Of a stretch of 41,337 bases of DNA, positions 2 to 40,972 are shown one piece after another (position 1 is the stretch's first letter; the number at the start of each line of letters is the position of its first letter). The stretch covers positions 1 through 41,337 of the forward strand of contig JAFCCI010000002.1 of the NCBI GenBank assembly GCA_017610275.1. Reading direction: 5' to 3'. The notes below the pieces were generated by a model. It was not told the DNA's origin. It saw only the letters and a program-made list of their open reading frames with translations, and ran no database searches. This DNA is from Candidatus Woesearchaeota archaeon. GTDB taxonomy: Archaea > Nanobdellota > Nanobdellia > Woesearchaeales > CG1-02-33-12. The position numbers and the translations under genes were made by a program.

Positions 2-364
2 GACACAATAAGAGTATCACTTACGACTAATCCTGTTGATGAAGTCAGAGCTGGAATTGAGATTTTGAATTCCCTTAACATAAGAAAAGGCAGAACAATA
101 ATTTCATGCCCTGGTTGCGGCAGAACAGAAATAGATTTAATTGGATTAACAAAGAACATTGAACAGGCAACAGCACACATAAAAAAACCAATTAAGATAG
201 CTGTTATGGGTTGTGCTGTCAATGGGCCAGGAGAGGCAAAAGAGGCTGATGTTGGTGTTGCTGGTGCAAAAGACTTTGGAATAATCTTCAGAAAGGGAAG
301 GGTTGTTAAGAAGGTAAAGAAAGATAAGATTCTTGAAGCGTTATTAGATGAAATAAGCAAATAG
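2..364 (+). CDS. ispG: IspG (GcpE), HMBPP synthase, C-terminal part
   Basis: This is the last ~120 residues of 4-hydroxy-3-methylbut-2-enyl diphosphate synthase; the frame is open at the window edge, so the start lies outside. IspG reductively opens MEcPP to HMBPP with a [4Fe-4S] cluster. The visible C-terminal domain carries the cluster cysteines in CPGCGR and in MGCAVNGPGE, both hallmarks of the family. The gene ends 9 nt before ispD and is the first of five consecutive MEP-pathway genes on this strand. The product is cytosolic. Family assignment is secure; only the N-terminal TIM-barrel part is unseen. Confidence 0.95.
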   Translation, partial: DTIRVSLTTNPVDEVRAGIEILNSLNIRKGRTIISCPGCGRTEIDLIGLTKNIEQATAHIKKPIKIAVMGCAVNGPGEAKEADVGVAGAKDFGIIFRKGRVVKKVKKDKILEALLDEISK

Positions 365-373
365 GTAGATTAT

Positions 374-1063
374 ATGAAAACAACAGCAATAATACTAGCA
401 GCAGGAAAGGCAAAAAGAATGATGACCCATAAAAATAAACTCTTCTTAGAGCTGCGAAAACCAATCTTAATACATTCAATAGAGGCATTTGAAAACCACA
501 AATTAATCAATGAGATAATAATTGTTGTAAACAAAAAGGATTTAGAAGCTTGCAGCAAGATTGTTGAAAAAAATATATTTAAAAAAATAAAAAAAATAAT
601 GGTTGGGGGTGAAACAAGGCAGCAGTCATCATACAATGGTGTTATGGAAGCAGATTCTGATATTATCCTTATTCATGATGGGGCAAGACCGCTTGTAACA
701 GAGGATTCCATAACAAACTCAATCAGGGACTCCTTAAATTATGGAGCTTCTGTTGTTGCAGTACCTCTAAAGGAAACTGTAAAAAAGATTGATAACTGTT
801 TTGTTCAAAACACCCTTGACAGAGATGCATTATGGGTTGCCCAAACCCCACAAACATTCAGGGCAGATATTATTAAAGAGGCGCATGAAACAGCAAAAAG
901 GGATGGTTTTTTTGGAAAAGATGATTCTTCATTAGTTGAAAGAATAGGTTATAAGGTTAGGATATGCAGGGGGCATTATGAAAATTTAAAGATAACAACA
1001 CCAGATGATTTGGTAATAGCAAAGCATATATTTAAGAAAAATAATGGTGATTATTATGATTAG
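374..1063 (+). CDS. ispD: IspD, MEP cytidylyltransferase
   Basis: 2-C-methyl-D-erythritol 4-phosphate cytidylyltransferase joins CTP and MEP to give CDP-ME. At 229 residues it has the normal length. The N-terminus has the nucleotide-binding loop (IILAAGKAKRM) of the IspD/TagD-like nucleotidyltransferases. The family motif HDGARPLVT lies near residue 97, and a typical C-terminal segment (LKITTPDDLVIAKHIF) follows. It lies between ispG and ispF, and its stop codon overlaps the ispF start, so it is almost certainly translated from the same transcript. The enzyme is bacterial-type and unexpected in an archaeon. Confidence 0.95.
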   Translation: MKTTAIILAAGKAKRMMTHKNKLFLELRKPILIHSIEAFENHKLINEIIIVVNKKDLEACSKIVEKNIFKKIKKIMVGGETRQQSSYNGVMEADSDIILIHDGARPLVTEDSITNSIRDSLNYGASVVAVPLKETVKKIDNCFVQNTLDRDALWVAQTPQTFRADIIKEAHETAKRDGFFGKDDSSLVERIGYKVRICRGHYENLKITTPDDLVIAKHIFKKNNGDYYD

Positions 1064-1535
1064 GGTTGGTATTGGCCAGGATTCTCATAGATTTATAATA
1101 AAAGACCAAAAAAGCCTTGTTCTTGGTGGTGTAATAATCCCTGATGAAAAGGGCTTAGAAGGAAATTCTGATGGTGATGTTGTGCTGCATGCTATTTTCA
1201 ATGCCCTTAGCCAGGCTGTTGGCAAAAGATCAATAGGTGTCTATTCTGATAAGATGTGCAGAGAAGGAATTAAAGACAGCAGAAAATACCTAAAAGTGGC
1301 ATTGAAGATGGTCAAAGACACTGGTTACAGGGTAAATAATATTGGTGTGATGATTGAGGCAAAAAAACCAAGAATTGAGCCATATGCTGATGATATGAAA
1401 AAGAGCATAGCAGGTATATTAATGATAACACAGGACATGATTGGCATAACAGCCACTTCTGGCGAGGGTCTTACTGCCTTTGGCAGAGGCATGGGAATAC
1501 AGGTATTTGCAATAGCAACTGTTATTAGGTGTTAA
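1056..1535 (+). CDS. ispF: IspF, MEcPP synthase
   Basis: 2-C-methyl-D-erythritol 2,4-cyclodiphosphate synthase cyclises CDP-ME 2-phosphate with loss of CMP. It is 159 residues, the usual length. Metal ligands are visible in GQDSHRF near the N-terminus (Asp-x-His) and the conserved His in DGDVVLHAIFNAL. The C-terminal signature TSGEGLTAFGRG is present. I place the start at the ATG at 1056 because GGTGA lies 5 nt upstream and MIRVGIGQDSH is the family's normal N-terminus; the open frame itself extends 12 nt further upstream. It overlaps the end of ispD by 8 nt. Confidence 0.95.
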   Translation: MIRVGIGQDSHRFIIKDQKSLVLGGVIIPDEKGLEGNSDGDVVLHAIFNALSQAVGKRSIGVYSDKMCREGIKDSRKYLKVALKMVKDTGYRVNNIGVMIEAKKPRIEPYADDMKKSIAGILMITQDMIGITATSGEGLTAFGRGMGIQVFAIATVIRC

Positions 1536-1539
1536 TATA

Positions 1540-2406
1540 ATGGAAATAATCCAAAAGGCATATGCCAAAATCAACCTTTCCTTGGATATCATTAAGAGGA
1601 TTTCTTCTGGATATCATAAAATAGAATTTGTTATACAGGAACTTGAGCTGCATGATATAATTAAAATAAAGAAAATAGAGAAAGGAATCAAACTTAATTG
1701 CAATACTAATATTTGTCCAGCTAATGAAAACCTTGCTTACAAAGCAGCAGAGCTTCTTATTAAAAAATTTAAAATAAACAATGGTGTTGAAATAACTATT
1801 GAGAAGAATATCCCTATTGCATCTGGTCTTGGCGGAGGAAGTTCAGATGCTGCTGCAACATTAAAAGGCATGAATAAGCTCTTTAACCTAAATTTATCAG
1901 AGGAGGAATTAATTGAAATATCTGGCGATATTGGCATGGATGTTCCATTCTTTATTCTTGGCAGCACGGTTCACGTAACTGGCCGGGGGGAAAATGTCAA
2001 AAGAATAGAAACCATGCCCAATAACATTTACTTTGTTCTGGCAAAACCAAAGTTTAGTATTTCAACAGAATATGCTTATAATAATATTGATTATGAAAAA
2101 ACAGGCAAGCAGCTAAAAACAGCTGAGATGATTAATACAATCATGGAAAAAGATATTAAAAAAATTGCAGAGAATATGCATAATGATTTTGAATATTCTA
2201 CCTTTAGGGAATATCCAATTATTAATGAAATTAAGCAAAAAATGATAGAAAATAAAGCATTAAATGCACTGATGTCTGGCTCTGGCCCAACTGTTTTTGG
2301 GATAACCAAAGAGAAAGCTGTTGCAGAAAACATATGTAACAGTTTAAAAGAAGACCCTTATTTTAAGAAAAATATTGAGTTTGTTTGTGTAACACAAACA
2401 AGGTGA
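1540..2406 (+). CDS. ispE: IspE, CDP-ME kinase
   Basis: 4-diphosphocytidyl-2-C-methyl-D-erythritol kinase phosphorylates CDP-ME using ATP. It is a 288-residue GHMP-superfamily kinase. The N-terminal AYAKINLSLDI is the substrate-binding segment, and PIASGLGGGSSDAA (residues 92-105) is the GHMP phosphate loop. The C-terminal GHMP motif is LMSGSGPTVFG. The gene starts 4 nt after ispF and is followed 4 nt later by ispH, continuing the tight MEP operon. Confidence 0.95.
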   Translation: MEIIQKAYAKINLSLDIIKRISSGYHKIEFVIQELELHDIIKIKKIEKGIKLNCNTNICPANENLAYKAAELLIKKFKINNGVEITIEKNIPIASGLGGGSSDAAATLKGMNKLFNLNLSEEELIEISGDIGMDVPFFILGSTVHVTGRGENVKRIETMPNNIYFVLAKPKFSISTEYAYNNIDYEKTGKQLKTAEMINTIMEKDIKKIAENMHNDFEYSTFREYPIINEIKQKMIENKALNALMSGSGPTVFGITKEKAVAENICNSLKEDPYFKKNIEFVCVTQTR

Positions 2407-2410
2407 AATT

Positions 2411-3217
2411 ATGAAAGTTATTTGTGCAGAAAACATGGGATTTTGTTCTGGAGTCAAGAGGGCATTGGATATGGTTTTAAATGAAAGAAATGCTTATACA
2501 TTAGGGCAATTAATACATAATCCACAGGTTGTTGAACTTCTTGAGAAAAAAGGAATTAAAGTTGTTAATTCAGTTGATGAAGCTGATAGAACCTTGATTA
2601 TAACTGCTCATGGGACACCAAAATCAAATATTGAAAAAGCAAAGAAGAAGGAATTAAGAATAATTGATACAACTTGCCCCCTTGTAAAAAGGGTTCATGA
2701 GCTTGCTGTGGAGTTTGACAAAAAAGAATACAAAATAATTTTATTGGGTGATAAGGAACACCAGGAAGTTAAGGGGACTGCAAGTAATGCAAAAGATGTT
2801 ACAATTATAAGTTCTGATGAAGAAGCAAGCAAAATGAAGTTGGATAAGGCTTGTTTCCTGTCCCAAACAACGCAGTCATTAGAAAAATTTAAAGAAATTG
2901 CTGATATATTAAAGAAAAATATTCCTGAACTGAAAATTTTTAATACAATATGTGATGCTACAAAGAAAAGGCAGGATTCAGCTATGAATCTTGCTAAAAA
3001 GGTTGATTTAATGATTATTATTGGCGGTTATAACAGTGCTAATACAAAAAGATTAAAGGAAATATGCAACAAGATAGTTGAGACAAAACACATCGAAAAA
3101 GCTGATGAAATTGATTTTGAATGGTTTAAAGATAAAAAAATAGTTGGATTGACAGCCGGAGCATCAACACCTGATCAGGTAATTAAGAGAGTTAAAGATA
3201 GAATAGAAAAGTATTAA
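2411..3217 (+). CDS. ispH: IspH (LytB), HMBPP reductase
   Basis: 4-hydroxy-3-methylbut-2-enyl diphosphate reductase makes IPP and DMAPP, the last MEP step. It has 268 residues, slightly short for the family. The three [4Fe-4S] cysteines are visible: C12 (NMGFCSGV), C89 (DTTCPLV) and C181 (TICDATKKRQ). The substrate-binding histidines are H36, H67 and H117, and the proton-relay glutamate is E119 (HQEVKG). The motif GGYNSANT is also present. GGTG lies 5 nt before the ATG. The gene converges on the cis-prenyltransferase gene with a single base between the two stops. Confidence 0.96.
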   Translation: MKVICAENMGFCSGVKRALDMVLNERNAYTLGQLIHNPQVVELLEKKGIKVVNSVDEADRTLIITAHGTPKSNIEKAKKKELRIIDTTCPLVKRVHELAVEFDKKEYKIILLGDKEHQEVKGTASNAKDVTIISSDEEASKMKLDKACFLSQTTQSLEKFKEIADILKKNIPELKIFNTICDATKKRQDSAMNLAKKVDLMIIIGGYNSANTKRLKEICNKIVETKHIEKADEIDFEWFKDKKIVGLTAGASTPDQVIKRVKDRIEKY

Positions 3218-3218
3218 T

Positions 3219-3917
3219 TTATTTCCCGAAGCGCCTGTCCCTGTTTTTGTATTCTTCAATTACTTTTATTAGGTCTTCTTTTTCAAACTCAGGCCAAGCC
3301 TTTTCAAGAAAAAACCATTCTGAATATATTGACTGCCATGGCAGAAAGTTGCTTGTTCTTCTATCGCCGCCAGTCCTTATTATGAGATCTGGCTCTGTAT
3401 TCAAGTAAAGGTTTTCTGAGAATGTTTCTTCATTAATATTCTTTATCTCCAACTCTTTGTTCTCAACTTTTTCAGCAACCTTTTTCACAGCATCAATAAT
3501 TTCTTCCCTTCCGCCATATGCAAGGGCAATGTTAATTTTGTAATCATTATAATCCTTAGTTAAGTCAATAACTTTTTTTATTTTTTCCTGCACCTTTTCT
3601 GGGAACAAGTAATACCTGCCAATTATATTTATTCTTATCTTATCTTTATGAATATCTTCGTTTGTTGATACTTCATTAAATCCTTTTTCAAAGAGATTCA
3701 TAAGATAGTCAAATTCTTTTTTGGGTCTGTTGAAGTTCTGCATAGAGAAACAGTAAAGTGTTATCTCCTTAATTTCTAGTTCCTTGCACCATTTAAACAG
3801 TTTTTTAATCTTTTTAAAGCCTAATTCATGGCCTTTCCATGGCTCTAGCATAAGCCTTTTTGCAAAGCGCCTGTTCCCATCTAAAACAATGCCTATATGC
3901 TCTGGATTCTTGTTCAT
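3219..3917 (-). CDS. uppS: cis-prenyltransferase (UppS family)
   Basis: (Z)-polyprenyl diphosphate synthase condenses IPP units to make the long-chain lipid carrier used for glycan export or N-glycosylation. It has 232 residues. The N-terminal signature HIGIVLDGNRRFAKR holds the catalytic Asp13, and GHELGFKKI follows. The C-terminal motifs LIIRTGGDRRTSNFLPWQ and EWFFLEKAWPEF bind the IPP diphosphate. Archaea normally have a member of this family, so this gene need not share the foreign origin of the neighbouring MEP genes that supply its substrate. A TATA box 26 nt upstream of the ATG points to a leaderless mRNA. Confidence 0.95.
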   Translation of the reverse strand: MNKNPEHIGIVLDGNRRFAKRLMLEPWKGHELGFKKIKKLFKWCKELEIKEITLYCFSMQNFNRPKKEFDYLMNLFEKGFNEVSTNEDIHKDKIRINIIGRYYLFPEKVQEKIKKVIDLTKDYNDYKINIALAYGGREEIIDAVKKVAEKVENKELEIKNINEETFSENLYLNTEPDLIIRTGGDRRTSNFLPWQSIYSEWFFLEKAWPEFEKEDLIKVIEEYKNRDRRFGK

Positions 3918-6323: not shown

Positions 6324-7010
6324 TTACGATTTTCCATTTCTCCAGTAAATAAAATTTTCAGTGATTTCATTATCATCTAAAACCTTATATTTTCTATGAT
6401 GAATATTAAACTTGTTATAAGCAGGATCAACAAGAATAGGATTATTTTGGACATAAACAACAGCACATCCATGATTAACTTTTTTGTTATCACAATCAAC
6501 CTTAACACTTGCATACTTTGACTTTAGCCCTGCTGCCCGCGCCATTGTTATATAGAGAAAAGCCATCTCTCCGCAAATCCCTAATTTATTTTCTAAAGTT
6601 TCCTTTGAGTTTTGATATCTATTGTTATTCCTTAAATTATCATACTCTATATTTTGGTGTATCCAATTAAATATTCTTTTGGCTTTTTCCTCATCATCCT
6701 TTATATTAGTAGTATAATTCTTAATTATTTTTACAAGTTCAGAGTTTATTATAAAAGGGTTTTCAATGCTTTTATCAGCTAATAAAACATTATATCCCTT
6801 GGTAATATTATTAAGATTAAAATATGGAACAGATGGAACTTTATACTCTTTTTTGATTTTTTCAATGAGATATGTATTTTGATTATTCTTCCTAATATTT
6901 TTCAACTTATCTTCTGAATTCTTTCTTTTAATTTTGTTTAGAAGGTCATCACTATTTTTTCTCTGTGTTTTTCTTATGACTTTCCCATTTATTATTTCCC
7001 ACAAATTCAT
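6324..7010 (-). CDS. transglutaminase-like cysteine peptidase
   Basis: The C-terminal ~130 residues form a transglutaminase-like (papain-fold) core with an intact Cys-His-Asp triad. Numbered from the ATG at 7010, these are C146 (LGICGEMAFLYITMARAAGL), H180 (VNHGCAVV) and D195 (ILVDPAYN). Upstream of the core is the usual helix (KRIFNWIHQNIEYDN). The N-terminal 55 residues are K/N-rich with a loose internal repeat (KRKNSDDLL, KRKNSEDKL). There is no signal peptide, so it is probably cytosolic. The ATG at 7010 follows AGGTT and overlaps the previous gene's end; an ATG at 7025 is possible. Members of this superfamily cut or join isopeptide bonds, which suits its position inside a ubiquitin-like operon. 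Confidence 0.85.
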   Translation of the reverse strand: MNLWEIINGKVIRKTQRKNSDDLLNKIKRKNSEDKLKNIRKNNQNTYLIEKIKKEYKVPSVPYFNLNNITKGYNVLLADKSIENPFIINSELVKIIKNYTTNIKDDEEKAKRIFNWIHQNIEYDNLRNNNRYQNSKETLENKLGICGEMAFLYITMARAAGLKSKYASVKVDCDNKKVNHGCAVVYVQNNPILVDPAYNKFNIHHRKYKVLDDNEITENFIYWRNGKS

Positions 7011-7011
7011 T

Positions 7012-9276
7012 TTAACCTGAAGCATCGTAGAAAATTTTGTTGAATTCTTTTTGGAGTTGAGGGCTTAATTTGGATATATCATCAGAAAGAGTCTTACTCA
7101 ATTCAATTTTGGTATTGTCTTTAATTTTGTATTGGTCTTTTAGTTCATATGGTTTAAGAGAGCCCTTAGTTCCAGCATTTTTCAATGATCCTATATTGTA
7201 TTTTGTTCCAAACTCCCTAATCTTTTGCTGCCTGTTTTTTTGATTTTGATTACTTGCTGAGCTTTCATTAGCTGCATAAACTAATTCCCATAACCCTGGA
7301 TTTCCAGTTTCCTCATCCATAACCCCCCAAAGGGTATCTCCTTTTTGAATTACATACTCCCTTTTGTTATCTTGATTATTTATAGCTGTTTTGCCAATAT
7401 GCTGAGTGATATCCTCCCTAGTATAATTTACTTTGTTACCAGGATTGTAAACAACTAAAGGAATATTTTCTCTTTCTATAATCTGCTCTGCTTTTTTAGT
7501 TGACTGGATATCTTTAATTGAATTAATTCGCTTATGATTAGCATACATAAGTGATCCTGCCCCAATTGCAAGGGATAATACTCCTATAAGACCAATTTTC
7601 CAGTATTTTTTCACAGTCCTTTTTATGAAACTTTTTGTTTTTACAGAATAATCTCTCAAGGTGTTACTTATATAATTGAGTGGATTATATTTGATTATAT
7701 TTGGCGGCTCTTTTTTATTATTTTTTCTTCTCCAGTTCACATTATTTCCATTATTTTCATATTTATGAAGGATCCTGTAAAGTGTAGATGTGCTGAATTT
7801 TTTCTCTGGCTCATTTTCCCGCCTGTTTTTATTTAACTCACTGCGTAAATTCTTAACCTTAACATTTGTGTTATTATACAAATTAATAATATCTGCTTTA
7901 TACTCATCAGGAATCTTATTTGCTCTTTTTTCTATATTATAACCATTATTTTCTGCTTCCCTTAGAATTTTGTCAAGAGTATAATTATTGATATTATATT
8001 TGCTGCATATCTGTTTTCTGGTTAATTCTTTATAATTGTTATACTTATCTATAATCCCCTCTAGGTTATTATGCGGAGTTCTATGTACAACTTCATTTAT
8101 TTGAGGCTCAATAGTCTTTTTCTCTTCAGCTGAATTGTTTAATTTATTATCATATATTATTGCTGGCAATTGTTTTATATGTTCAGTTGGAGTCTCTTTT
8201 TTATATATATTCTTTTGTTCTTCACCTTTGTCTTTTAGCTTTTCTTCAGGAGTTTTTGTTATTATTTCTTCTAAGTTTTTATTCACTTCCTCATTTTTTT
8301 CAGAAGGCTTAACCACAATCATATTAAAATTATTAACCCTTGTTTCTACTCCACTTATGATTTTTCTTAATTCATAGTCTAATACTTTTCTAGTTGGAAG
8401 CTTTCCGTTATGGTGAACCCTTTTTGATACATGATCAACTAATTTTTTATAGTCTTCAAATTGAACGTTTCCATCATCTATAACCTCTAGAGCAACATCT
8501 TTTCCTTTTACATAATTTATTTTTTCATCTCCCTTCCCTTTATAAGAAACTTCTAAGTAAGGTTGTATATTTTTGCTGTTGGTTACCATGCTATAAGCAT
8601 ATGAAATTTTTATTGGGTCAGCTTTTTCAACTTTGGCTATTTTAACATCCTTAAGAAGAGGTATAATCTCTGAATTAATCTTATCTATTGACAACCTGAA
8701 AGAAGGACTATTGTTATTATTTTGATTTATTAATAAATAATTTTTACCATCTTTATTAGAATAATTTAAGTTATAACCTCCTTCCAAATTGTCTATATCA
8801 ACGAAATTGTCTATAGTAATTTTATTATTAGGGAACACACTATAAGAAACTCCTTTAAAATTTTCTCTGTCATCTGGAGAATGAAAAGGTCTATGATCCA
8901 GTCCATGGCTATGCCACCAGCCTATTATTTTAGACCCTCTTCTCTGAATTTTTTTGAATTCATTCATCTCAGAAGATGGATCACCAATACATTTTGAAGA
9001 TGTAACAGATTGGTTATGAGCTAAATATATATCATTAACAACATCTTTATTGGTTCCTTCTGGCGCAATTAAATAACCCATGGCTTCTACTGATTCATTA
9101 AATAATATTGGTGCTATCGTAGAATAAAAGTTTGCCTTTAATAAAGCACTTTTTTTTATTTTTAATTTTTTAATTAAATTATTATTATTATTATTATTTG
9201 AGTTTAGAGTACTATTTAAGTTGAAATGCTCTTCTTTTTTTAAAAGTAATTTCCTTATTTTATTTTTTATTGGCAT
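7012..9276 (-). CDS. membrane-anchored JAB/JAMM protease with HTH-like and LysM domains
   Basis: This is a 754-residue multidomain protein. Residues ~45-175 are a JAB/MPN metalloprotease domain: Glu64 (SVEAMGYLIAP), then H122 and H124 (GWWHSH), S133 and D136 (FHSPDD). The HxH-to-Ser spacer is 8 residues rather than the usual 7. Residues ~175-310 match the second domain of the 288-residue JAB protein encoded just upstream (ISYAYSMVTN versus VSFAYSLVFN). A disordered linker is followed by two helix-turn-helix-like stretches (~400-520), one TM segment (~558-579) and a LysM domain from residue 641 (YVIQKGDTLWGVMDEETGNP). Lysines before the TM predict the JAB inside and LysM outside. It starts 1 nt after the E1-like gene's stop codon. 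Confidence 0.85.
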   Translation of the reverse strand: MPIKNKIRKLLLKKEEHFNLNSTLNSNNNNNNNLIKKLKIKKSALLKANFYSTIAPILFNESVEAMGYLIAPEGTNKDVVNDIYLAHNQSVTSSKCIGDPSSEMNEFKKIQRRGSKIIGWWHSHGLDHRPFHSPDDRENFKGVSYSVFPNNKITIDNFVDIDNLEGGYNLNYSNKDGKNYLLINQNNNNSPSFRLSIDKINSEIIPLLKDVKIAKVEKADPIKISYAYSMVTNSKNIQPYLEVSYKGKGDEKINYVKGKDVALEVIDDGNVQFEDYKKLVDHVSKRVHHNGKLPTRKVLDYELRKIISGVETRVNNFNMIVVKPSEKNEEVNKNLEEIITKTPEEKLKDKGEEQKNIYKKETPTEHIKQLPAIIYDNKLNNSAEEKKTIEPQINEVVHRTPHNNLEGIIDKYNNYKELTRKQICSKYNINNYTLDKILREAENNGYNIEKRANKIPDEYKADIINLYNNTNVKVKNLRSELNKNRRENEPEKKFSTSTLYRILHKYENNGNNVNWRRKNNKKEPPNIIKYNPLNYISNTLRDYSVKTKSFIKRTVKKYWKIGLIGVLSLAIGAGSLMYANHKRINSIKDIQSTKKAEQIIERENIPLVVYNPGNKVNYTREDITQHIGKTAINNQDNKREYVIQKGDTLWGVMDEETGNPGLWELVYAANESSASNQNQKNRQQKIREFGTKYNIGSLKNAGTKGSLKPYELKDQYKIKDNTKIELSKTLSDDISKLSPQLQKEFNKIFYDASG

Positions 9277-9277
9277 T

Positions 9278-10789
9278 TTATTTCTTATAAAAATCTTGGC
9301 TGCAAGGACAACCCTTTCTTGGATTTCTTATATGATTTCCTAAGATAATTCGATTAGCTGAAAGAGAATTATAGTATATACTATCCCTTATTGTAAAACC
9401 ATAAACTTCTGGGTAAAATATTTTCTTGACTTCTCCAACAATCATTGCACTAATTATCTGGTTTGACATAACAACACTTGGATCATGGTTATCTGCAATA
9501 CAACTAGTCGGGGTAATATCATTTTCTTTAGCCTCCTTTTGTGCCAGTAAATACACATTCTTATGGCAATCTATACAAGCAGTTTTTCCAGGATTATATA
9601 CACTAACCTGTCCTGAAAAAGGTTCTGTTCCTGCATCTATATATGGAATCTTATTTTTTACAGCTATTTTATTAATAAAAGCCCTAGTGGTAAAAGTATC
9701 GACTCCCCCTATAATTAAATCACAATTAAGTTTTAGAAGTTCTGACTCACCGATAAGTTTTACCCCTTGGCTTCTTTCATTTTCATTAAGATATTCACCT
9801 ACCTTTCCATATAATCCTTTAATATTAATATTAGGGTTTATGTTCTTCAAAGCTTTAGAAAGCACGTCTACTTTTCTTTTGCCTATATTATTTTCAAAAT
9901 TATAAAGAATTTGTCGATTTGGATTAGTAGCATCTACTTCATCCATATCAATCATATATATTTGATTTATTCCTAAAAGGGATAATCCTAAACCAACAAA
10001 ATTTCCTACTGCTCCTGCACCTATCATTACAATTTTTTTATCCTTAAATAAATCTTTTTCATTAAGATAACAGTCAAAATTAAGAGTTATGTCTGATTTG
10101 TCCTCAAATCTTTTATTTGATAATAAATTATAAGTTACTGCTTTTTTTAGTAATTTATCATTTGGTTTTAATTTAAGAATAGATTTTCTAATCTCTTCTG
10201 TAGCCAATCCACCAATGAGCCCATTAGGTATGTTTCCCTGTTTGGAGTTTTCAAAATCTAAAAATAAATAATCTTCTATAGTTTTTGAATTATTGTTTTT
10301 TGATAAAAGGATTTTTTCTACTTGATTCATTGGTTCATAAACCATTATCTTTCCTTTGTTTTCGCTTGTAGAAGCAGTAATTAAAGGTATTCTTAACCTA
10401 TCTGAAAGTTTTAGACTATTCAATTTTGAGCTCGGTTTGTTTGTAAGATCAACTAAAACATTTGGTTTTCCTATTAAATCATAAAAAGGCTCAGAATGTA
10501 TGCCCAACACATTAATATTTTCATTCATCTGAGAGATTATTTTTTCAAGGTGCTTAACCTTACTTATTTTTTCCTTTTTTTTATAGTAGTTAAAAAAAAG
10601 AAATTCATTAATGTCATTGTGATAATAGTTATTATCAATAATTCTTATATTTCCAACTTGCAATCCTGTAAGATTAGCTAAAACAAAATTACATAAAGAA
10701 CCAGCCCCTATTATTGTTACAAGAGAACCATCTAACTTTTTTTGGTCCCAATTTGTTATTCTTTCTTGTCTATCGGTCCTTTCTGAAAT
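9278..10789 (-). CDS. E1-like activating enzyme with two ThiF domains
   Basis: The open frame encodes about 503 residues, starting at an ATT codon at 10787-10789 (numbering used here). The N-terminal ThiF domain has the typical entry RQERITNWDQKKL and nucleotide loop IIGAGSLCNF (27-36), but lacks the catalytic Arg. The second ThiF domain looks active: IGAGAVG (256-262), NPNRQILYN with Arg292, GKRK, GGVDTFTTR with Asp364, zinc cysteines CIDC (405, 408) and CPC (494, 496), and Cys430 (PTSCIADN) where E1/MoeB proteins hold the conserved or thiol-carrying Cys. No ATG, GTG or TTG exists in frame until residue 43, which would delete the first nucleotide loop. GGTGG lies 5 nt before the ATT. The start overlaps the upstream JAB gene by 20 nt. 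Confidence 0.88.
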   Translation of the reverse strand: MSERTDRQERITNWDQKKLDGSLVTIIGAGSLCNFVLANLTGLQVGNIRIIDNNYYHNDINEFLFFNYYKKKEKISKVKHLEKIISQMNENINVLGIHSEPFYDLIGKPNVLVDLTNKPSSKLNSLKLSDRLRIPLITASTSENKGKIMVYEPMNQVEKILLSKNNNSKTIEDYLFLDFENSKQGNIPNGLIGGLATEEIRKSILKLKPNDKLLKKAVTYNLLSNKRFEDKSDITLNFDCYLNEKDLFKDKKIVMIGAGAVGNFVGLGLSLLGINQIYMIDMDEVDATNPNRQILYNFENNIGKRKVDVLSKALKNINPNINIKGLYGKVGEYLNENERSQGVKLIGESELLKLNCDLIIGGVDTFTTRAFINKIAVKNKIPYIDAGTEPFSGQVSVYNPGKTACIDCHKNVYLLAQKEAKENDITPTSCIADNHDPSVVMSNQIISAMIVGEVKKIFYPEVYGFTIRDSIYYNSLSANRIILGNHIRNPRKGCPCSQDFYKK

Positions 10790-11636
10790 TTATACCACCA
10801 AACAGTTTTTTCTTTCTTTTATGCATTATAAGTTTGTCATCGCTGATTAATTTTGTTTTTAGCTCTTCTAATATTCCATGGTAATCTAAAATCTCCTTAT
10901 CGGATATTATTTCTTTAAGTTTAACATCTTTTTTTATGATTACCTCCTTTTCAGGATATTTAATAGCTATCTCAGCGTAAGGAAGCATAGAATAAAAGCG
11001 ATTAAAAACAAGACTATAAGCAAAAGACACACCCCTATATTTTTTTCTTCTAATACTCTTTACCCCAAGGGTTACTAGCTTTGAAAGATTATTTACCTCT
11101 ATTTCAACATAATCTTCAAAAGGATTTGATCCCTTTACAATAAGGTATTTTTTACCATCATCTTCTTTATTATAGTTTACTTTTAGTGGACCATCCAATA
11201 ACTGAATTATTTCTCTTTTTAACGCTTTTTTATTATGTGGAAAAACTGCTAGATAAAGATTTTTGAAATTATCATCATCATCTGGTGAATGAAAAGGATG
11301 AGATTGGGCATGACTATGCCACCACCCCATTATCTTATAACCTTTATTTTCAATTTCCTTTATTGCATCCATATCAGTTCCCACCTCAGCACTATAATGT
11401 GTACTTTCTACATTCTGTTTATTTGACAAAAAAATATCTTTTACAATACAATCATCATCATTCTTTGGTGTTATAAGATAACCGCCGCACTCAAGCGGTT
11501 TCCTGAAAATCTTGCAAGCTAATGAAGAATATGCTTTTGCTTTTTTGTAAGCATAGTCAGTTATAGGTACCTCATTCAGAAAATCTTTTGTCTTATTTTT
11601 TAATTTGTTTTCTAAAATATATTTTATTTTATCCAT
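10770..11636 (-). CDS. JAB/JAMM metalloprotease
   Basis: This 288-residue protein has a complete JAMM active site: Glu49 (KPLECGGYLI), H107 and H109 (MGWWHSHAQ), S117 and D120 (FHSPDDDD), with the canonical HxH-x7-S-x2-D spacing. The domain spans ~25-145. A second domain (~160-270) is shared with the membrane JAB protein of the same operon. No TM or signal peptide is seen. JAMM proteases in prokaryotic ubiquitin-like operons trim the modifier precursor or remove the modifier. The ATG follows a strong GGAGG site. The gene lies between the E2-like and E1-like genes, the classic order for such operons. Confidence 0.9.
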   Translation of the reverse strand: MDKIKYILENKLKNKTKDFLNEVPITDYAYKKAKAYSSLACKIFRKPLECGGYLITPKNDDDCIVKDIFLSNKQNVESTHYSAEVGTDMDAIKEIENKGYKIMGWWHSHAQSHPFHSPDDDDNFKNLYLAVFPHNKKALKREIIQLLDGPLKVNYNKEDDGKKYLIVKGSNPFEDYVEIEVNNLSKLVTLGVKSIRRKKYRGVSFAYSLVFNRFYSMLPYAEIAIKYPEKEVIIKKDVKLKEIISDKEILDYHGILEELKTKLISDDKLIMHKRKKKLFGGINFRKDR

Positions 11637-26087: not shown

Positions 26088-26936
26088 CTATTTTAATATA
26101 TCATAGAAAGCATCAAATATTGGCTTGTCTGTTGTTACAATGTTAAAATCAAGTCCAAGCTCATCACATATCTTTGCTATCCTTGATATATGGTCTTCAA
26201 GCTTTTTTTTATAACCAACCCTAAGCCTTGGATTTATATATGTCCTTAGCATATTCTTTGTTTCAGAGTCCTTAAGCCTGAAATCTCCCTGAAATGCAAG
26301 CTCCCTTTCCACAGGATCCAAGATTTGTATTATTTTCATATCCTGATCTCCAAGCATAATAAGTCCTTGTTCTATCTCTTCAATATCAAACAGGAAATCA
26401 GATATAATAACCACAAGGGCTCTTGAGCCTATCATTTTTTTGTACCTGCTCATTGCATCCTTGAATCTTGAAACACCAGTCAGCTTTATGCTATTCAGGT
26501 GGTCAACCATGCTTGCAAGGTGACCCATGCCTCTCTTTGGCTTAAAGGTTTCAAGGCCTTCTGAAAAAGTTGAGAACTGGAATTTTTCATTCTCTTTCAT
26601 CGCTAAATATGCTGTTCCAACTCCAAGCATAGAGGCATAGTCAAACTTTGTAACTCCCTTTCCAAAATTCATGCTTCCGCTGTGGTCAACTATTATATGT
26701 GTTGTAAGGCTTTTATCCTCTTCATATCTCTTGATGTAAAGGTCATCTGTCCTTGCAAATATTCTCCAGTCTATTGCCCTGAAATCATCTCCGGGAGCAT
26801 AAATCCTATGGTCTTTTATTGTTATGCCCCTGCCATGCATTACAGAGCGCCTTTCTCCTGTATAACTTGATGTAACTCTTTTCCTTACAATAAGATTAAA
26901 CTTGCCAAGCTGGGACAGAAATTCAGTTGTTATCAT
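26088..26936 (-). CDS. DUF58 domain protein
   Basis: A 282-residue soluble DUF58 protein. The hallmark stretch is GRGITIKDHRIYAPGDD followed by RAIDWRIFARTDDLYIKRYE, then a vWA-like MIDAS start (HIIVDHSGSM). It pairs with MoxR-type ATPases in bacterial and archaeal operons that assemble or activate vWA-protein complexes. It overlaps the MoxR gene by 4 nt (ATGA), so the two proteins are translationally coupled. Confidence 0.93.
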   Translation of the reverse strand: MITTEFLSQLGKFNLIVRKRVTSSYTGERRSVMHGRGITIKDHRIYAPGDDFRAIDWRIFARTDDLYIKRYEEDKSLTTHIIVDHSGSMNFGKGVTKFDYASMLGVGTAYLAMKENEKFQFSTFSEGLETFKPKRGMGHLASMVDHLNSIKLTGVSRFKDAMSRYKKMIGSRALVVIISDFLFDIEEIEQGLIMLGDQDMKIIQILDPVERELAFQGDFRLKDSETKNMLRTYINPRLRVGYKKKLEDHISRIAKICDELGLDFNIVTTDKPIFDAFYDILK

Positions 26937-27868
26937 TTTGCCTTGCTTATTATTTCTTTGATGGCATCATCTGTTGACATTCCCTTTCTTTCAGCCTCAA
27001 AATTTAATATAATCCTGTGTCTTAATATTGGGTAAGCCATTGCATCAATATCCTCCTTGCTAACATAGTTTCTTCCCTTTAGAAGTGCTCTTGCCTTTGA
27101 TGCAAGAACTAAGCCAATAGATGCCCTTGGTGATGCCCCATATTCTATTAAATTGGGGTGTTTTCTTGTCTCAGTAACTATACTGACTATCCTATGCTTA
27201 AGGTCATTTGCTATTGGGATTTGTCTTACTAAATCCTGCATATGCATAAGATGCGCCTTATCAAGCAATATACTTAACTTATGATTTTTGACTTCAAATG
27301 CATATTTATCTACTATTTCAACTTCTTCATCATATGTTGGGTATCCTATCTTAATCTTTAGCAAAAACCTGTCTGCCTGGGCTTCTGGCAGAGGGTATGT
27401 TCCTTCCTGTTCAATAGGATTCTGTGTTGCAAGAACAAAAAACGGCTTGTCAAGCTTGAATGTTGTATTTCCTACAGTAACCTGCTTTTCCTGCATTGCC
27501 TCAAGCATGGCAGACTGCGTTTTTGGTGTTGCCCTGTTAATTTCATCTGCAAGCACAATATTTGCAAATATTGGCCCTGGCTGAAACTTAAAGTTTCTCT
27601 TGCCAGAGGTCTCTTCAATAATATATGTTCCTGTTATATCAGATGGCATTAAATCAGGGGTATTTTGTATCCTGCTGAATTTAAGGTCCATCATTTGGGC
27701 CATTGTTTTTATAGCAAGGGTTTTTGCCAGGCCAGGGTATCCCTCAAGCAGGGCATTTGCATCACATAATATTGTGATCATAATCTGCTCAACAACCTCT
27801 TTTTGCCCAACAACTATTTTTCCTATCTCTTTGTATAAACTATCAAAAGTTTCCTTATACATTTTCAT
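26933..27868 (-). CDS. moxR: MoxR-family AAA+ ATPase
   Basis: A 311-residue AAA+ ATPase. Walker A is EGYPGLAKT, Walker B IVLADEINRATP, sensor 1 VLATQNPIEQEGTYPLPEAQ and sensor 2 GASPRASIGLVLASKA. MoxR proteins act as chaperones inserting metal or remodelling vWA-domain partners. GAGGTG lies 5 nt upstream of the ATG. It sits centrally in a six-gene operon with DUF58 and two vWA membrane proteins. Confidence 0.95.
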   Translation of the reverse strand: MKMYKETFDSLYKEIGKIVVGQKEVVEQIMITILCDANALLEGYPGLAKTLAIKTMAQMMDLKFSRIQNTPDLMPSDITGTYIIEETSGKRNFKFQPGPIFANIVLADEINRATPKTQSAMLEAMQEKQVTVGNTTFKLDKPFFVLATQNPIEQEGTYPLPEAQADRFLLKIKIGYPTYDEEVEIVDKYAFEVKNHKLSILLDKAHLMHMQDLVRQIPIANDLKHRIVSIVTETRKHPNLIEYGASPRASIGLVLASKARALLKGRNYVSKEDIDAMAYPILRHRIILNFEAERKGMSTDDAIKEIISKAK

Positions 27869-27880
27869 TTTAACACCTCT

Positions 27881-28669
27881 TTAATCTTTTGCAATTTTTA
27901 AAAAATATGCTTTTACAAGCTCCTGCTGGTCTTCCTGAATTTTTTCTTCATAAACATCAGCTGTTTCTACAAATACATCATCTGGAAAAAGCTCTTCAAA
28001 ATCTCTTTTTTCAGGCTCTTTTACCTCATCAAGATTTATCTCATACCCTGCTGGCTTAATTACCATATCAAGCATTTCGCCGCCCATTTGGGCAATTTGT
28101 GCATCACCAAATACGCTCTCGCTTATTCCAGAGCTGGCTATTCTCTCAAGACCCTGCTTTCCATCTCCTGTATTATTTCCGCCAATGCTATATACAAAAT
28201 CAACAGCAGTATTTGCTGCATCTTTGAGATTAAATGATAAGTCAAACCGTGCTGAAAATACCACTAAAAAGCATAATATTATGCTTAATAATATTTTGTA
28301 AGAAACATTCTTTTGGTTAAAAAAAGATGTTACTTCAACCTTTTTCATATCCCTCATAATATTGGATTTCAGCTCATCAACAACTGGATTTTCCATTTTT
28401 ATGTTATCTCTCGCTGTTCTAAGCCTTTCATTAAGAAGGGGATATTTTTTTTCAACATTTATCAAATGTTTTTCCCTAATGCCTTTATATGTTTTAATTA
28501 TAAAATATAATGCTGCAGGAACTAATGCATATATCTGATAAAAATTAAATAAAGACAAAATAATGTAAATAATTAAAAATATCAGAAATGCATTTAGAAA
28601 ACTATTAAACAATACAATATTGTTGAATGTAAAATTTATTTCCCTTAAAACCTTATTAAATTTCTTCAT
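27881..28669 (-). CDS. membrane protein of the MoxR operon
   Basis: 262 residues with two closely spaced N-terminal TM segments (about 18-60) and a third at ~125-145 (YKILLSIILCFLVVFSARF). The C-terminal ~110 residues are acidic (EEVKEPEKRDFEELFPDDVF) and should lie outside the membrane. The layout recalls the membrane components of archaeal MoxR-vWA operons, but no named family is evident. Confidence 0.6.
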   Translation of the reverse strand: MKKFNKVLREINFTFNNIVLFNSFLNAFLIFLIIYIILSLFNFYQIYALVPAALYFIIKTYKGIREKHLINVEKKYPLLNERLRTARDNIKMENPVVDELKSNIMRDMKKVEVTSFFNQKNVSYKILLSIILCFLVVFSARFDLSFNLKDAANTAVDFVYSIGGNNTGDGKQGLERIASSGISESVFGDAQIAQMGGEMLDMVIKPAGYEINLDEVKEPEKRDFEELFPDDVFVETADVYEEKIQEDQQELVKAYFLKIAKD

Positions 28670-28672
28670 TTT

Positions 28673-29173
28673 TTATGGGCATGTGCATGTAGCCAGCTGA
28701 GCATTCAGGTCAACTATATCTTCGTTTAAACCAGCTATATCCACTCTGAGTCCTGATATTGTTGTCTGAGCAGCAGTAAGGCTTGTCTTTGTTGTGCCAA
28801 GTTCTGCCTGTACTGTGAATAATTCTGCTTTTTTCAGCTTTAACTCATTTGTTTTTGCTGTTAACTGTGTTTGTAATTTTGCTTTGTCATCCTCTAATTT
28901 TTCCTTTTCAGTTCTTAGTTCTGTGTACTGCGTGCTTAGCTCTTTTTCTCTTTCTTCCTTGATAGTAAGTTGCTGGCTTGTCTGCTCAAGCTTTGCTTTT
29001 TCAGTGCCCAGGGTTGATGAAACATTTTTTAAATCCTCTATCCTCATTTGGTAATCCATGTACAAATCCTTAAACGTTGCCTGATAATAAAGGCTTAATC
29101 CAGCAAGAGATATAAGGACTGCAACTAATAAAAGAAAAAAACCAAAGTTAACATTTCTTTTCATATATGCCAT
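28673..29173 (-). CDS. membrane-anchored coiled-coil protein
   Basis: 166 residues: a single N-terminal TM anchor (FGFFLLLVAVLISLAGLSLYY) followed by an unbroken coiled coil rich in L/E/K/T, ending in CTCP. It resembles no enzyme; it may be a spacer or scaffold outside the membrane. GGTGATAGC precedes the ATG at 29173, and its stop lies 3 nt before the next gene's start codon. Confidence 0.6.
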   Translation of the reverse strand: MAYMKRNVNFGFFLLLVAVLISLAGLSLYYQATFKDLYMDYQMRIEDLKNVSSTLGTEKAKLEQTSQQLTIKEEREKELSTQYTELRTEKEKLEDDKAKLQTQLTAKTNELKLKKAELFTVQAELGTTKTSLTAAQTTISGLRVDIAGLNEDIVDLNAQLATCTCP

Positions 29174-29199
29174 GCTATCACCTTATTATTAATTATTAT

Positions 29200-31596
29200 T
29201 TATATAGATTTCCTATTTTCCATAATTCTTCTGATACAAACCTCTATTAAAAATATAGATAATGCTGATAAAATAAAAATCCAGCTATAGCTTTTTTCAT
29301 CTATTTTTTTTCTTCTTGAATTTTCTTTAATGAATTCTACTATTGCAGTTGTATTATCTTTATTAAATATCCTTCCGTTGGTTATGCTCACAATGTCTAC
29401 AAGCTCAGGATTTATTCCTAAGTCTTCGTATTCCCTCTTGTAATTAACAGCCATAACTGCATCAAAAAAATCATGAAACCCTGTTGTCTTCGGAACAAAT
29501 TCTGCCTTATAAATATTTTTGTCTAGCTTTGAAAATGATAATCCTTCAAGCACAGGATTTGTTTCTGAAATAACAATTATCTCTGCAACATCCCCCACTC
29601 TTGAATCCTTAAGTTTTACATCAAATTCCTTGTTCCTGCTGGGGTTACCAATAGCCCAGTTGACTGTTCTTGTAATAATTTTTGAATTTTCCTTGTTTAA
29701 GAGCTGACCAGCCCATATTTCCGGATCTGTTGTTAATGCAGCAACTCTTCCAAGCCCAAACCTCCATATTGTAACTATGGGATTTGTGTTATGGGTTGCT
29801 ATAAGCATCCTTGCAGAACTTTTTGGAACAACCTGGTTAAAGCCAGTCACTTTTGCATTCAGGTTAAGATTTTGGGTTATAAAATGATTTGAGTCAATGA
29901 TTAAAAGTCCCATCACATCAGTCTCCTCTTCCTCAGGCTCCCTGCTGAAAATAATATTTAATCTTTGCGCTTCAGTAGGCTCAAAATAAACACCCTGGCC
30001 AGCTAATGCCAAATCCTGCATAAATTGCCTGTTGGTATCAAATCCAACTCCCACAGTATAGGTCTTTATTCCCTTTGAAGCCATTGATTTTGCTCTTTTA
30101 ATTGCACCATCAGGGTATTGTGTTATTCCGTCAGATATAAGAACAATATTTTTGCTTCCTTTTTCAGATCTTAGCATCTGCTCTGCCCTTATCAAGCCAA
30201 CAGAAACAAGTGTCCCTGCATTAAAACCACCGCAGTGAATAGTGGATATTGTATAATTTAAGTCAGGTTTTTCATCTATTATTGAAAGGGGGGATATTGA
30301 ATGATAATTAAAATCAAAGCTGATAACACCTATCTTATCTCCTGGTCTTAAGCCTCCAACAATCTGTGTTGCAACCGCTTTCTCAACATCTATTTTTGTA
30401 TTTGTGCTTCCACTGCCAAAAGCAGAGCATGTTGTTCCTGAAACATCTATTATAACTATGATATTCATTCCGCTTTCCTCTTCCCTGCCGGCAAGCCCCA
30501 CTTTAACAGGAAGAATAGTTTCAAACACTGAATTTTCATAGTTGCCGTAATCAAATGAATCCTGCCCACCAATGACTACAAGACCATTGCCATCTGCTGC
30601 ATAATTGGTTAAGATATCTGTATTTGTTTTAAGCCAGTCTTGATTTATGTTATACAAAACAACAGCAGAATATGATTTAAGGTCTTCCGGCATATAACTC
30701 TTTTTGGAAACATCATAGACAGCATCCATTATCTGTGTTATTTTTGCATCCTTTTGTGAAATAAAGAGTATATTTGGCTTTGGCAGAACATGGAGTGTTT
30801 TGTAATAAACATTGTTTTGCTGGAAATAATCACTTGCTATTATTGATGCTTTTATTTTATGATATCCTGTCTGCAGCATCTGCTTAATCTCAAATGTTTT
30901 TGTACCAGTGGCTTTTTCATTTATTATAATATTATCATCAATCATTACCTGAATGTTATAATCTAATGACAAAGGGCCAACTTGTTTTACATCAATATAA
31001 AATAAAGCTTCTGTTCCAAATATTAGTTCAGAAGGGGAATCAATTGTTACAACAAGGTCTGTTTTTATTGGATTAATATCTAATGAGCTGATGGTTGTGT
31101 TTAATGAAGATGCAAGCATCATCACATCACCTAAATCAGTTCCTTTGTTATTGTTTCCATCACTGATTAATAATAAGTTGTCATTTCCCTTCATATTATT
31201 AAGCAGGCTGTCTCCTATTGGTGATTCTTCTCCACGTGCAATATACCTTATTGTTGTTGGAATCTCTTTTTCAAGGCTAATTTTTAAGTTAGAGCCAATA
31301 TCCTGCTCAAAAAGCTCAAATGATGTTGAGTTATCTGCAAGTATTGTTAATGAGGGATTTCCCTGAACAGTTTTTTCCTCTAATGTGAATGGTGATGCTA
31401 TTGCTATTATCAAAAGCGAGAAAACAAAAAACCTTGATATGGCTATTAATATCCTTGAAAGTTTCTTGCTTTTTACATGCTCTTCTTTTTCCTTCTCTGT
31501 TGTAAATTTAACAAAAGTTTTTCTAATAATAACAATAAGTGTAATAATCACAGGAATAAAGAGTAATAATGCTTGCGGATTCTTGAGGTAAATGAT
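29200..31596 (-). CDS. large vWA membrane protein of the MoxR operon
   Basis: About 798 residues from an ATC start at 31594-31596, or 783 from a GTG at 31551. The longer form begins with two TM segments (KNPQALLLFIPVIITLIVII and SRFFVFSLLIIAIA), like the BatA-type protein upstream. The body has a DxSxS-like strand (LTILADNSTSFE), a glutamine-amidotransferase-like region (VVIGGQDSFDYGNYENS) and a full vWA domain (IVIIDVSGTTC, LISDG). A C-terminal TM segment ends the protein. GGGGTGA lies 6 nt before ATC, and stop/start overlap as TAATC; no site precedes the GTG. Probably anchored with its vWA domain outside, as a partner of MoxR. Confidence 0.75.
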   Translation of the reverse strand: MIYLKNPQALLLFIPVIITLIVIIRKTFVKFTTEKEKEEHVKSKKLSRILIAISRFFVFSLLIIAIASPFTLEEKTVQGNPSLTILADNSTSFELFEQDIGSNLKISLEKEIPTTIRYIARGEESPIGDSLLNNMKGNDNLLLISDGNNNKGTDLGDVMMLASSLNTTISSLDINPIKTDLVVTIDSPSELIFGTEALFYIDVKQVGPLSLDYNIQVMIDDNIIINEKATGTKTFEIKQMLQTGYHKIKASIIASDYFQQNNVYYKTLHVLPKPNILFISQKDAKITQIMDAVYDVSKKSYMPEDLKSYSAVVLYNINQDWLKTNTDILTNYAADGNGLVVIGGQDSFDYGNYENSVFETILPVKVGLAGREEESGMNIIVIIDVSGTTCSAFGSGSTNTKIDVEKAVATQIVGGLRPGDKIGVISFDFNYHSISPLSIIDEKPDLNYTISTIHCGGFNAGTLVSVGLIRAEQMLRSEKGSKNIVLISDGITQYPDGAIKRAKSMASKGIKTYTVGVGFDTNRQFMQDLALAGQGVYFEPTEAQRLNIIFSREPEEEETDVMGLLIIDSNHFITQNLNLNAKVTGFNQVVPKSSARMLIATHNTNPIVTIWRFGLGRVAALTTDPEIWAGQLLNKENSKIITRTVNWAIGNPSRNKEFDVKLKDSRVGDVAEIIVISETNPVLEGLSFSKLDKNIYKAEFVPKTTGFHDFFDAVMAVNYKREYEDLGINPELVDIVSITNGRIFNKDNTTAIVEFIKENSRRKKIDEKSYSWIFILSALSIFLIEVCIRRIMENRKSI

Positions 31597-33353
31597 TATA
31601 AATCACCCCTTATCTTTAAAATATATATCTCCAAAAGCATAATAACAATTGCAAAAATAATTAAATAAATATTAAGGTTTAAAACAACTTTCTCTTGGGA
31701 AATACCTGAAACAAACTCCTCGTTATCAAAAGATACTGTTTCCCTGGCTATGTCTGATTCATATTCATTAAGAAGGTTCACTGCAATCTTATTGCCATTA
31801 TCATATATTCCGGCTTTGCCTATTGACGGTTTTTCATCTATCCTGAAGTTATAGTCATTTATATCACCTGCTTCAGCAAGAAAGTTTAATAGTTCATTCC
31901 AGAATATTGGATAAGATGTTTGTGTTTTAAAATCAGTCTGCTCGTCAATAATTCCATAATAAACCGAATTTCCTTTTCCCCTTTTACCTAAAGCAACAAG
32001 CGGGCTAAAATCATCAGCTTCTATAATTGGTATTGTATTCTCTTTTGGAATTGCCTTGAAATATTTTTTAACTATTGTAAAGCATTTATTGCTCTCAAAC
32101 TGCTTTGTAAATTCATTTATCACTTTGACGCATGCTTTTGTATTATTGGCTTTTTCATTTAATTCAACAGGAAGGAGCCATGACATTCCTACCTGGTTTA
32201 GGTCATCCTGTGCTGTCATAATGAGGCTTTTTCCATTTTCCACCTCTCTTGATATCTCTTCAAGTGTTCCAGGAAGAATAAGGTTCCCTTCTATACTATT
32301 TATTATTATAATTTCACTGGACTCAATACCATGTATTATTGGGGGTTCTGTAATCTGAAGATTAATATCCTTTGATGACTGCAATGCCTTCATAAGATAG
32401 CTTTTTTTTGCATTTGTTATCAGCAGAACATCTATCTGTTTTTTTAATGGCGCGCTTATATAAGCAATGTTATCAAATTTAAGGTCATCATCTGAATTTA
32501 TTACAATTTTGCTGATTCCTGTTGGTGTTTCAAAATTAAATATTTCTGTTGAATGGGCAGTTATTGTTTTTGATTTGGTTTCTAAGGTATTTTCTTCTTT
32601 GATTATTGCTGCTGTTATTTCTGCATCATCATCAAAATTCTTTACATATGCCATTATATTGTATTTATCAATATCAAGTTCTATGATCCCTATGTTTTTT
32701 GCCTTGTTCCAGATGCTTATAAACTCAACATTAATGCCTTTTGAAGATAATATTCTCTTTGCCTTTAATAATTCATTTATATCATCTATTATAAAATCAC
32801 TTATAACAATAATTCTTCCCTTCCTGTCTGCAAGTATTGATTCTGCCTCATACAATGCACTTTCAAGATTTGTTTTGGTATCCCTTGGTTCTAAGGTTTG
32901 AAGCAATGACAATGCCCGGTTTTTTGTTCCATCTTCTAAAATTGTTTCAGGGCTGCCTGAAGCAACTATTATGCTTACTTTGCCCTGCAAATAGTCTTTT
33001 GCTATGTCTATTGAGTTTTCAAATCTTGTTTTGCCATTATTGATTGCCTGTGAACTTGCACTTGCATCAATTATAATAACAGTATTTTGAGATACAACAG
33101 CCTCAGAAGTTATTATGTAAGGTGAGGCAATTGAAAAAGCCAGTATAGATAATACCAATAACTGCAATAGAAATACAAGATTTCTCAGCAATTTCTGAAA
33201 AAAGGAATTCTTTATTGCCCTTTTTTGGTTTTTTATTAAGAACATAAGAGAAGGAACAACCTTTTCAACTGGTTTTGGTTTTATCAGATAAAGTATAACA
33301 AGGGGTATTAAGCTTAGAAAAGCATAAAGTCCCAGAGTATTAGCTAGCTGCAT
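31596..33353 (-). CDS. BatA-like vWA membrane protein
   Basis: 585 residues. The N-terminal BatA-type module has two TM segments (LGLYAFLSLIPLVILYLI and LVFLLQLLVLSILAFSIA), followed by a vWA-like domain with MIDAS (TVIIIDASASSQA). Later domains are beta-rich, and a C-terminal TM helix (IYLIIFAIVIMLLEIYIL) closes the protein. It leads the MoxR operon; GAGGTG lies 5 nt before the ATG, and a TATA at 33392-33404 gives a short leader. Confidence 0.85.
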   Translation of the reverse strand: MQLANTLGLYAFLSLIPLVILYLIKPKPVEKVVPSLMFLIKNQKRAIKNSFFQKLLRNLVFLLQLLVLSILAFSIASPYIITSEAVVSQNTVIIIDASASSQAINNGKTRFENSIDIAKDYLQGKVSIIVASGSPETILEDGTKNRALSLLQTLEPRDTKTNLESALYEAESILADRKGRIIVISDFIIDDINELLKAKRILSSKGINVEFISIWNKAKNIGIIELDIDKYNIMAYVKNFDDDAEITAAIIKEENTLETKSKTITAHSTEIFNFETPTGISKIVINSDDDLKFDNIAYISAPLKKQIDVLLITNAKKSYLMKALQSSKDINLQITEPPIIHGIESSEIIIINSIEGNLILPGTLEEISREVENGKSLIMTAQDDLNQVGMSWLLPVELNEKANNTKACVKVINEFTKQFESNKCFTIVKKYFKAIPKENTIPIIEADDFSPLVALGKRGKGNSVYYGIIDEQTDFKTQTSYPIFWNELLNFLAEAGDINDYNFRIDEKPSIGKAGIYDNGNKIAVNLLNEYESDIARETVSFDNEEFVSGISQEKVVLNLNIYLIIFAIVIMLLEIYILKIRGDL

Positions 33354-39300: not shown

Positions 39301-39335
39301 TAGTGACTACTTTTTCTTGTTTTTGTAGTCACCTA
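39301..39335. repeat. inverted repeat at the fic stop codon
   Basis: TGTAGTCACCTA at 39324-39335, read in fic sense as TAGGTGACTACA, lies within the final fic codons. An imperfect inverted copy (TAGTGACTAC, 39301-39310) spans the stop codon. Together they form an ~11-bp hairpin with an A-rich loop. The 12-mer is the same as the three copies in the fic promoter. Confidence 0.65.
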
Positions 39336-40878: not shown

Positions 40879-40972
40879 AATGAAATTTTTGTTTAATTTT
40901 TAATTAATACGAAATAATTCCGGTAATTCTTTGTTAATCTTTATTAATCAGTTAATTGAAAATATTTTTACA

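Follow-up and report, generated by a model that had tools for sequence, protein, structure and literature searches.

An open question about DPANN archaea is how those that lack a full isoprenoid pathway come by their membrane-lipid precursors. The stretch analysed here (the window) is one whole contig of 41,337 bp (C83), belonging to a 961-kb archaeal genome in 83 contigs that is 75.7% complete. At positions 2-3217 of this contig, ispG, ispD, ispF, ispE, and ispH form a tandem row in one direction, in a genome in which neither dxs nor dxr was found. A bacterial MEP pathway in an archaeon is already known (PMC8204110, PMC8421398, PMC10936187). The pathway was described in a clade of 52 Woesearchaeota genomes, with genes co-located near a UbiA prenyltransferase (PMC8204110), a paper that in turn cites Castelle and Banfield 2018 for the MEP pathway of Woesearchaeota. 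It occurs in Woesearchaeota subgroups F and J, where ispD and ispF are usually fused and bacterial origins were inferred (PMC8421398), and in Woesearchaeota and Nanoarchaeota of oxygen-deficient zones (PMC10936187). Because these genes are published for DPANN and Woesearchaeota, the headline of an earlier sequence-only reading of the window, MEP genes in an archaeal genome, is not new.

Bacterial-type isp genes on an archaeal contig

Genes were identified with Pfam and NCBIfam profiles, using the NCBIfam curated cut-offs. All Isp genes passed these cut-offs except ispG, which is cut by the contig edge, and the profile matches bore out the claim of five consecutive MEP genes in the order ispG-D-F-E-H. 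The row and its neighbour consist of the following features.

2-364, plus strand: ispG (gcpE), 3' third only; PF04551; the rest lies on contig C4 (G000:C4, locus L109)
374-1063, plus strand: ispD, MEP cytidylyltransferase; TIGR00453, 223.8 bits versus a cut-off of 181.3
1044-1535, plus strand: ispF, MEcPP synthase with a DPANN-type active-site loop; TIGR00151, 160.6 versus a cut-off of 116.5; start at 1044 or 1056
1540-2406, plus strand: ispE, CDP-ME kinase; TIGR00154, 257.7 versus a cut-off of 138.7
2411-3217, plus strand: ispH (lytB), HMBPP reductase; TIGR00216, 291 versus a cut-off of 188
3219-3917, minus strand: UppS-type cis-prenyltransferase; TIGR00055, 252.7 bits versus a cut-off of 109.6, and synteny

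Each of the five Isp proteins matched the solved enzyme of the same name, with the window IspD matching 5ddt at 7.3e-56. The C-terminal 120 residues of IspG (2-361) matched positions 223-342 of the GcpE profile at 6.7e-47. The first 109 bases of the window match one end of contig C4 exactly (reverse complement), on which the 5' part of ispG sits, and the IspG joined across the two contigs has 345 residues and aligns to the solved IspG 3noy at 8.9e-98. Upstream of the joined ispG are a polyprenyl synthase and an AMMECR1 gene (domains named in the copy of G003). At the other end UppS is convergent with ispH, and it is a syntenic partner conserved across the family. In a test for the canonical MEP pathway, which leads from pyruvate and G3P to IPP and DMAPP, IspD, IspE, IspF, IspG, and IspH were all present in the window's genome. 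The sequence-only reading had credited the row with all key catalytic residues. This was correct for IspG, IspD, IspE, and IspH, which retain their motifs, the iron-sulphur cluster and active-site residues of IspH being intact, but not for IspF. Relative to the E. coli sequence (E. coli numbering), IspF keeps the metal ligands D8, H10, and H42 together with E135, but carries Ser in place of D56 and an altered TTEK loop. Since both changes were common to all archaeal IspF examined, including those from genomes with dxr, the odd loop is typical of the clade, and degeneration of IspF was rejected as an explanation.

The contig also encodes the archaeal proteins L31e, S19e, a PDCD5-like DNA-binding protein, and a TruB/dyskerin-type protein, along with DUF357, a diphthamide synthesis protein, and prolyl-tRNA synthetase, so archaeal-style genes do adjoin the MEP genes as had been noted. 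We place the organism in DPANN, within an order in which the MEP-bearing members are similar to the Woesearchaeota of the literature. A contig break that falls inside ispG could be taken as the mark of a chimera of bacterial and archaeal DNA. However, the two contigs meet there in an exact assembly overlap of 109 bp, and the codon use of the Isp genes fits the rest of the window (r = 0.94), as originally proposed. Moreover, the locus lies between the same archaeal genes, AMMECR1/polyprenyl synthase on one side and UppS on the other, in the independently assembled family genomes G001, G003, G004, G005, G007, and G008, on contigs of up to 64 kb (the G005 locus is split over two contigs). Because of this synteny, misassembly or contamination with bacterial DNA is effectively refuted, and we give it practically no chance. 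The Isp genes are of bacterial kind, adapted, and truly in an archaeon. GGTG sites, which had been cited as a further sign of adaptation, were found within 20 bases before ispE and ispH, but none lies before ispD or ispF.

A headless pathway in course of loss

The family of the window (f1) was sampled by nine genomes that are 76-97% complete, namely the window's genome (75.7%) and eight relatives (79-97%). Profile searches for DXS (PF13292) and DXR (PF02670) matched none of the nine, and the same was true of HMG-CoA reductase (PF00368), which was the sole mevalonate enzyme searched and served as the mark of that pathway. As positive controls in the same runs, DXR was found in 10 other genomes of the order and strong DXS matches in 8. 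The MEP pathway of this family is therefore headless, and dxs and ispC (dxr), which had been recorded as merely not visible in the window, were found neither in its genome nor in the eight relatives. The full set is present in G025, which belongs to another family, and its operon order is ispG-dxs-dxr-ispD-ispF-ispE-ispH; the window's family has this order without dxs-dxr, and its ispG and ispD nearly touch. With only 75.7% of the window's genome recovered, dxs and dxr might exist and have been lost in assembly gaps. Their absence from all nine genomes makes this very unlikely: IspH is present in seven of them, and the probability that dxr went unseen in every one of these seven is about 1e-7 when completeness is taken at face value and independence is assumed. 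The sequence-only reading had further suggested that the operon perhaps replaced mevalonate. We found no evidence for such a replacement in the lineage, and since dxs and dxr are absent from the genome and all eight relatives, the operon cannot by itself replace mevalonate.

The remainder of the row is eroding within the family. G000, G003, G004, and G005 have all five genes in the order G-D-F-E-H. In the congener G001, ispG is a 25-codon remnant in which the first dozen codons are joined to the last dozen, whereas the other four genes (D, F, E, and H) are intact. G008 has lost D-F-E, and ispG and ispH alone remain, adjacent to each other. In G007 (97% complete), ispG breaks off after roughly its first 80 codons and continues mid-way through ispE, with a frameshift thereafter, leaving an ispG::ispE pseudogene beside an intact ispH. 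IspH, IspG, and IspF were not found in the congener G002 (92% complete), where a different gene stands beside UppS at the ispH site, nor in G006 (79% complete), all family genomes being incomplete assemblies. Because the breakpoints differ at one syntenic site (G001, G007, G008, and G002), the losses were independent. The locus is a truncated pathway in course of loss. The space between ispE and ispH also varies. An uncharacterised protein of 245-250 residues lies there in G004 (L059:7765-8502) and G001 (L057:8839-9591), with no Pfam match and a dN/dS of about 0.6; a xylose-isomerase-like TIM barrel occupies the same site in G007 (L062:4585-5343), and G000 and G003 have neither.

Selection on the surviving genes was estimated by simple pairwise dN/dS within the genus, using two methods (one method only for some pairs). 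The values were 0.09-0.17 for ispG, 0.15-0.29 for ispD, 0.18-0.39 for ispF, 0.25-0.41 for ispE, and 0.11-0.22 for ispH, compared with 0.10-0.30 for UppS next to them. With dS mostly at 0.1-1.0, these low ratios are not due to saturation. The surviving Isp genes, with dN/dS well below 1, are under purifying selection. As a separate observation, dS of ispD and ispF across the genus (g1) was about 0.2, clearly lower than the roughly 0.4-0.9 of ispH and the flanking genes, which may reflect recombination or transfer within the genus.

Retention of G-D-F-E-H under purifying selection in four congeners would also be expected if a non-homologous enzyme pair made MEP and the pathway were complete after all, and bacteria are believed to possess alternatives to Dxs (PMC10663253). 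A working head, however, leaves the loss of D-F-E or of G in close relatives unexplained. The only known alternative to DXR is the DXR-like enzyme DRL (PF21135), and it was absent from all nine family genomes; this absence counts little, because no control genome gave a match either. Altogether we consider a different head improbable.

IspH without upstream enzymes across the order

We next consider the order as a whole, sampled by 288 genomes. A substantial IspH match was present in 70 of them, 33 of which also had IspG and DXR. In 24 of the 70, spread over 14 families, both IspG and DXR were absent, and 14 of these 24 genomes have a completeness of 90% or more; the 24 include G007 with its pseudogene and also G001, where D-F-E persist. 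Among the ten such genomes in a 60-genome set, true DXS and HMG-CoA reductase were found in none, and IspF in G001 only. The three cluster cysteines and the active-site His, Glu, Thr, Ser, and Asn, taken as the marks of a genuine HMBPP reductase, were invariant in 20 aligned archaeal IspH, which include eight from IspH-only genomes plus those of G001 and G007. The ispH gene adjoins UppS or a polyprenyl synthase in G047, G049, G050, and G054. In G048, from a related family, IspH and a polyprenyl synthase form one 630-residue protein (L066:15650-17542), and no DXS, DXR, IspG, or IspF was found in that genome.

An IspH tree was built by a short search, with support by SH-aLRT only. The window's family formed one clade (SH-aLRT 100), which grouped with DPANN mostly having fuller MEP sets (SH-aLRT 86), and the IspH-only rows required at least five changes of state. 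Pathway reduction probably happened repeatedly; for families in which ispH is located elsewhere, transfer of ispH alone may be involved.

These data bear on the possibility that the row is a dying relic, in which finished isoprenoids or whole lipids come from a host, the remaining Isp enzymes no longer support any useful flux, and the longer survival of IspH is accidental or due to a different role. Genes were lost repeatedly within one genus and family, and uptake of host lipids is documented for another DPANN archaeon (PMC11035636). Nevertheless, dN/dS of 0.09-0.41 across ispG, D, F, E, and H is not what a relic should show, nor is an IspH active site that stays invariant in ten genomes without intact IspG and DXR, nor the fusion of IspH to a polyprenyl synthase. 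We therefore regard the relic as rather unlikely.

Two further ispH arrangements were observed. In G030, a HAD hydrolase, a GHMP kinase (probably IspE), and IspH are fused (L068:13301-15589). In family f37 (L131:5111-6121; relatives in G241 and G265), genomes lacking ispG and dxr have ispH close to a conserved sugar kinase of PfkB type, a possible lead to a salvage kinase.

Import of MEP intermediates as a proposed explanation

The reading we prefer, at a probability of about one half, is that the row is a remnant bacterial-type MEP operon fed by an imported intermediate, whose entry point has moved downstream until only IspH is left. Import is the simplest working model because nothing in the cell is known to make MEP and HMG-CoA reductase is also missing. 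Loss of DXS and DXR would predate the radiation of the family. The five enzymes that are left, predicted to be active, would convert MEP to IPP and DMAPP for use by the adjacent polyprenyl synthase and UppS. The organism is a small, probably symbiotic archaeon, and most likely a partner cell with its own MEP pathway supplies it with a methylerythritol-type intermediate. Entry would then shift from MEP to MEcPP to HMBPP, followed by deletion of the upstream genes. Entry would be at MEcPP in G008, from which D-F-E are deleted, and at HMBPP in G007, from which G-D-F-E are deleted, as probably also in many other families. IspH would survive longest because the import point moves to ever later intermediates. 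The IspH-polyprenyl synthase fusion of G048 is the best single hint that HMBPP is a real substrate in such cells. Extended to a general course of events, in which a DPANN lineage salvages its partner's MEP, then MEcPP, and finally HMBPP, so that IspH-only archaea live on imported HMBPP, the proposal is more tentative, and we offer it as a possibility. Some points count against import. MEP intermediates carry phosphate groups and need assistance to pass through membranes. In addition, G001 keeps D-F-E under constraint despite its loss of ispG, and a single entry point accounts for this only if the loss was very recent. The genomes compared are also, without exception, incomplete assemblies.

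Like the published Woesearchaeota sets, the locus is bacterial-type, co-located, found in DPANN, and near prenyltransferase genes. Those sets, however, have dxs and/or dxr and usually a fused ispD/F, whereas the window's family has no dxs or dxr, separate ispD and ispF, and relatives that are losing the rest. In a survey of 4,400 bacterial species, Dxs was the only clearly dispensable step, and DXR and IspG were called 'evolutionarily rigid' (PMC10663253). MEP genes without dxs are thus shared with the non-canonical bacterial pathways of that survey. Unlike in the surveyed bacteria, dxr, and in many genomes ispG, is gone here and ispH stays, so that archaea keeping IspH dispense with the two rigid steps. 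Listeria likewise retains a subset of MEP enzymes, but it keeps the top, loses the bottom, and stops at MEcPP, beside a mevalonate pathway (PMC13001223); the window's family is the opposite, having lost the top, with HMG-CoA reductase not found. Dependence of a DPANN archaeon on a partner for isoprenoid lipids is reported for Ca. Nanohaloarchaeum antarcticus, which takes finished lipids (PMC11035636); the uptake proposed here is of an early intermediate. In a search that fell short of the whole literature, we found no description of an IspH-only or headless MEP pathway in DPANN. The apparently new part is therefore the family-wide lack of dxs, dxr, and HMG-CoA reductase combined with an eroding remainder. 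With a family caught at several stages of dismantling its MEP operon, passage of intermediates from partner to symbiont becomes a testable hypothesis. If it is true, the partner with the MEP pathway is most likely a bacterium, and this would inform on the hosts.

Other gene rows were observed on the contig. At 6324-11636 (minus strand), a row made up of a transglutaminase-like protein, a ThiF/E1-like protein, and two proteins with JAB domains resembles a ubiquitin-like conjugation cluster of prokaryotes; weak matches to the PADLOC E1-E2 and JAB models came from ThiF and one of the JAB proteins, and this cluster beside UppS is partly conserved in the family. A MoxR AAA ATPase, DUF58, and BatA/von Willebrand factor A proteins stand in a row at 26088-33353 (minus strand), a type of cluster that is common in archaea and poorly understood. 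Near the contig end are a Fic/DOC protein (39307-40263, minus strand) and a Schlafen AlbA_2 protein (40931-41335, plus strand).
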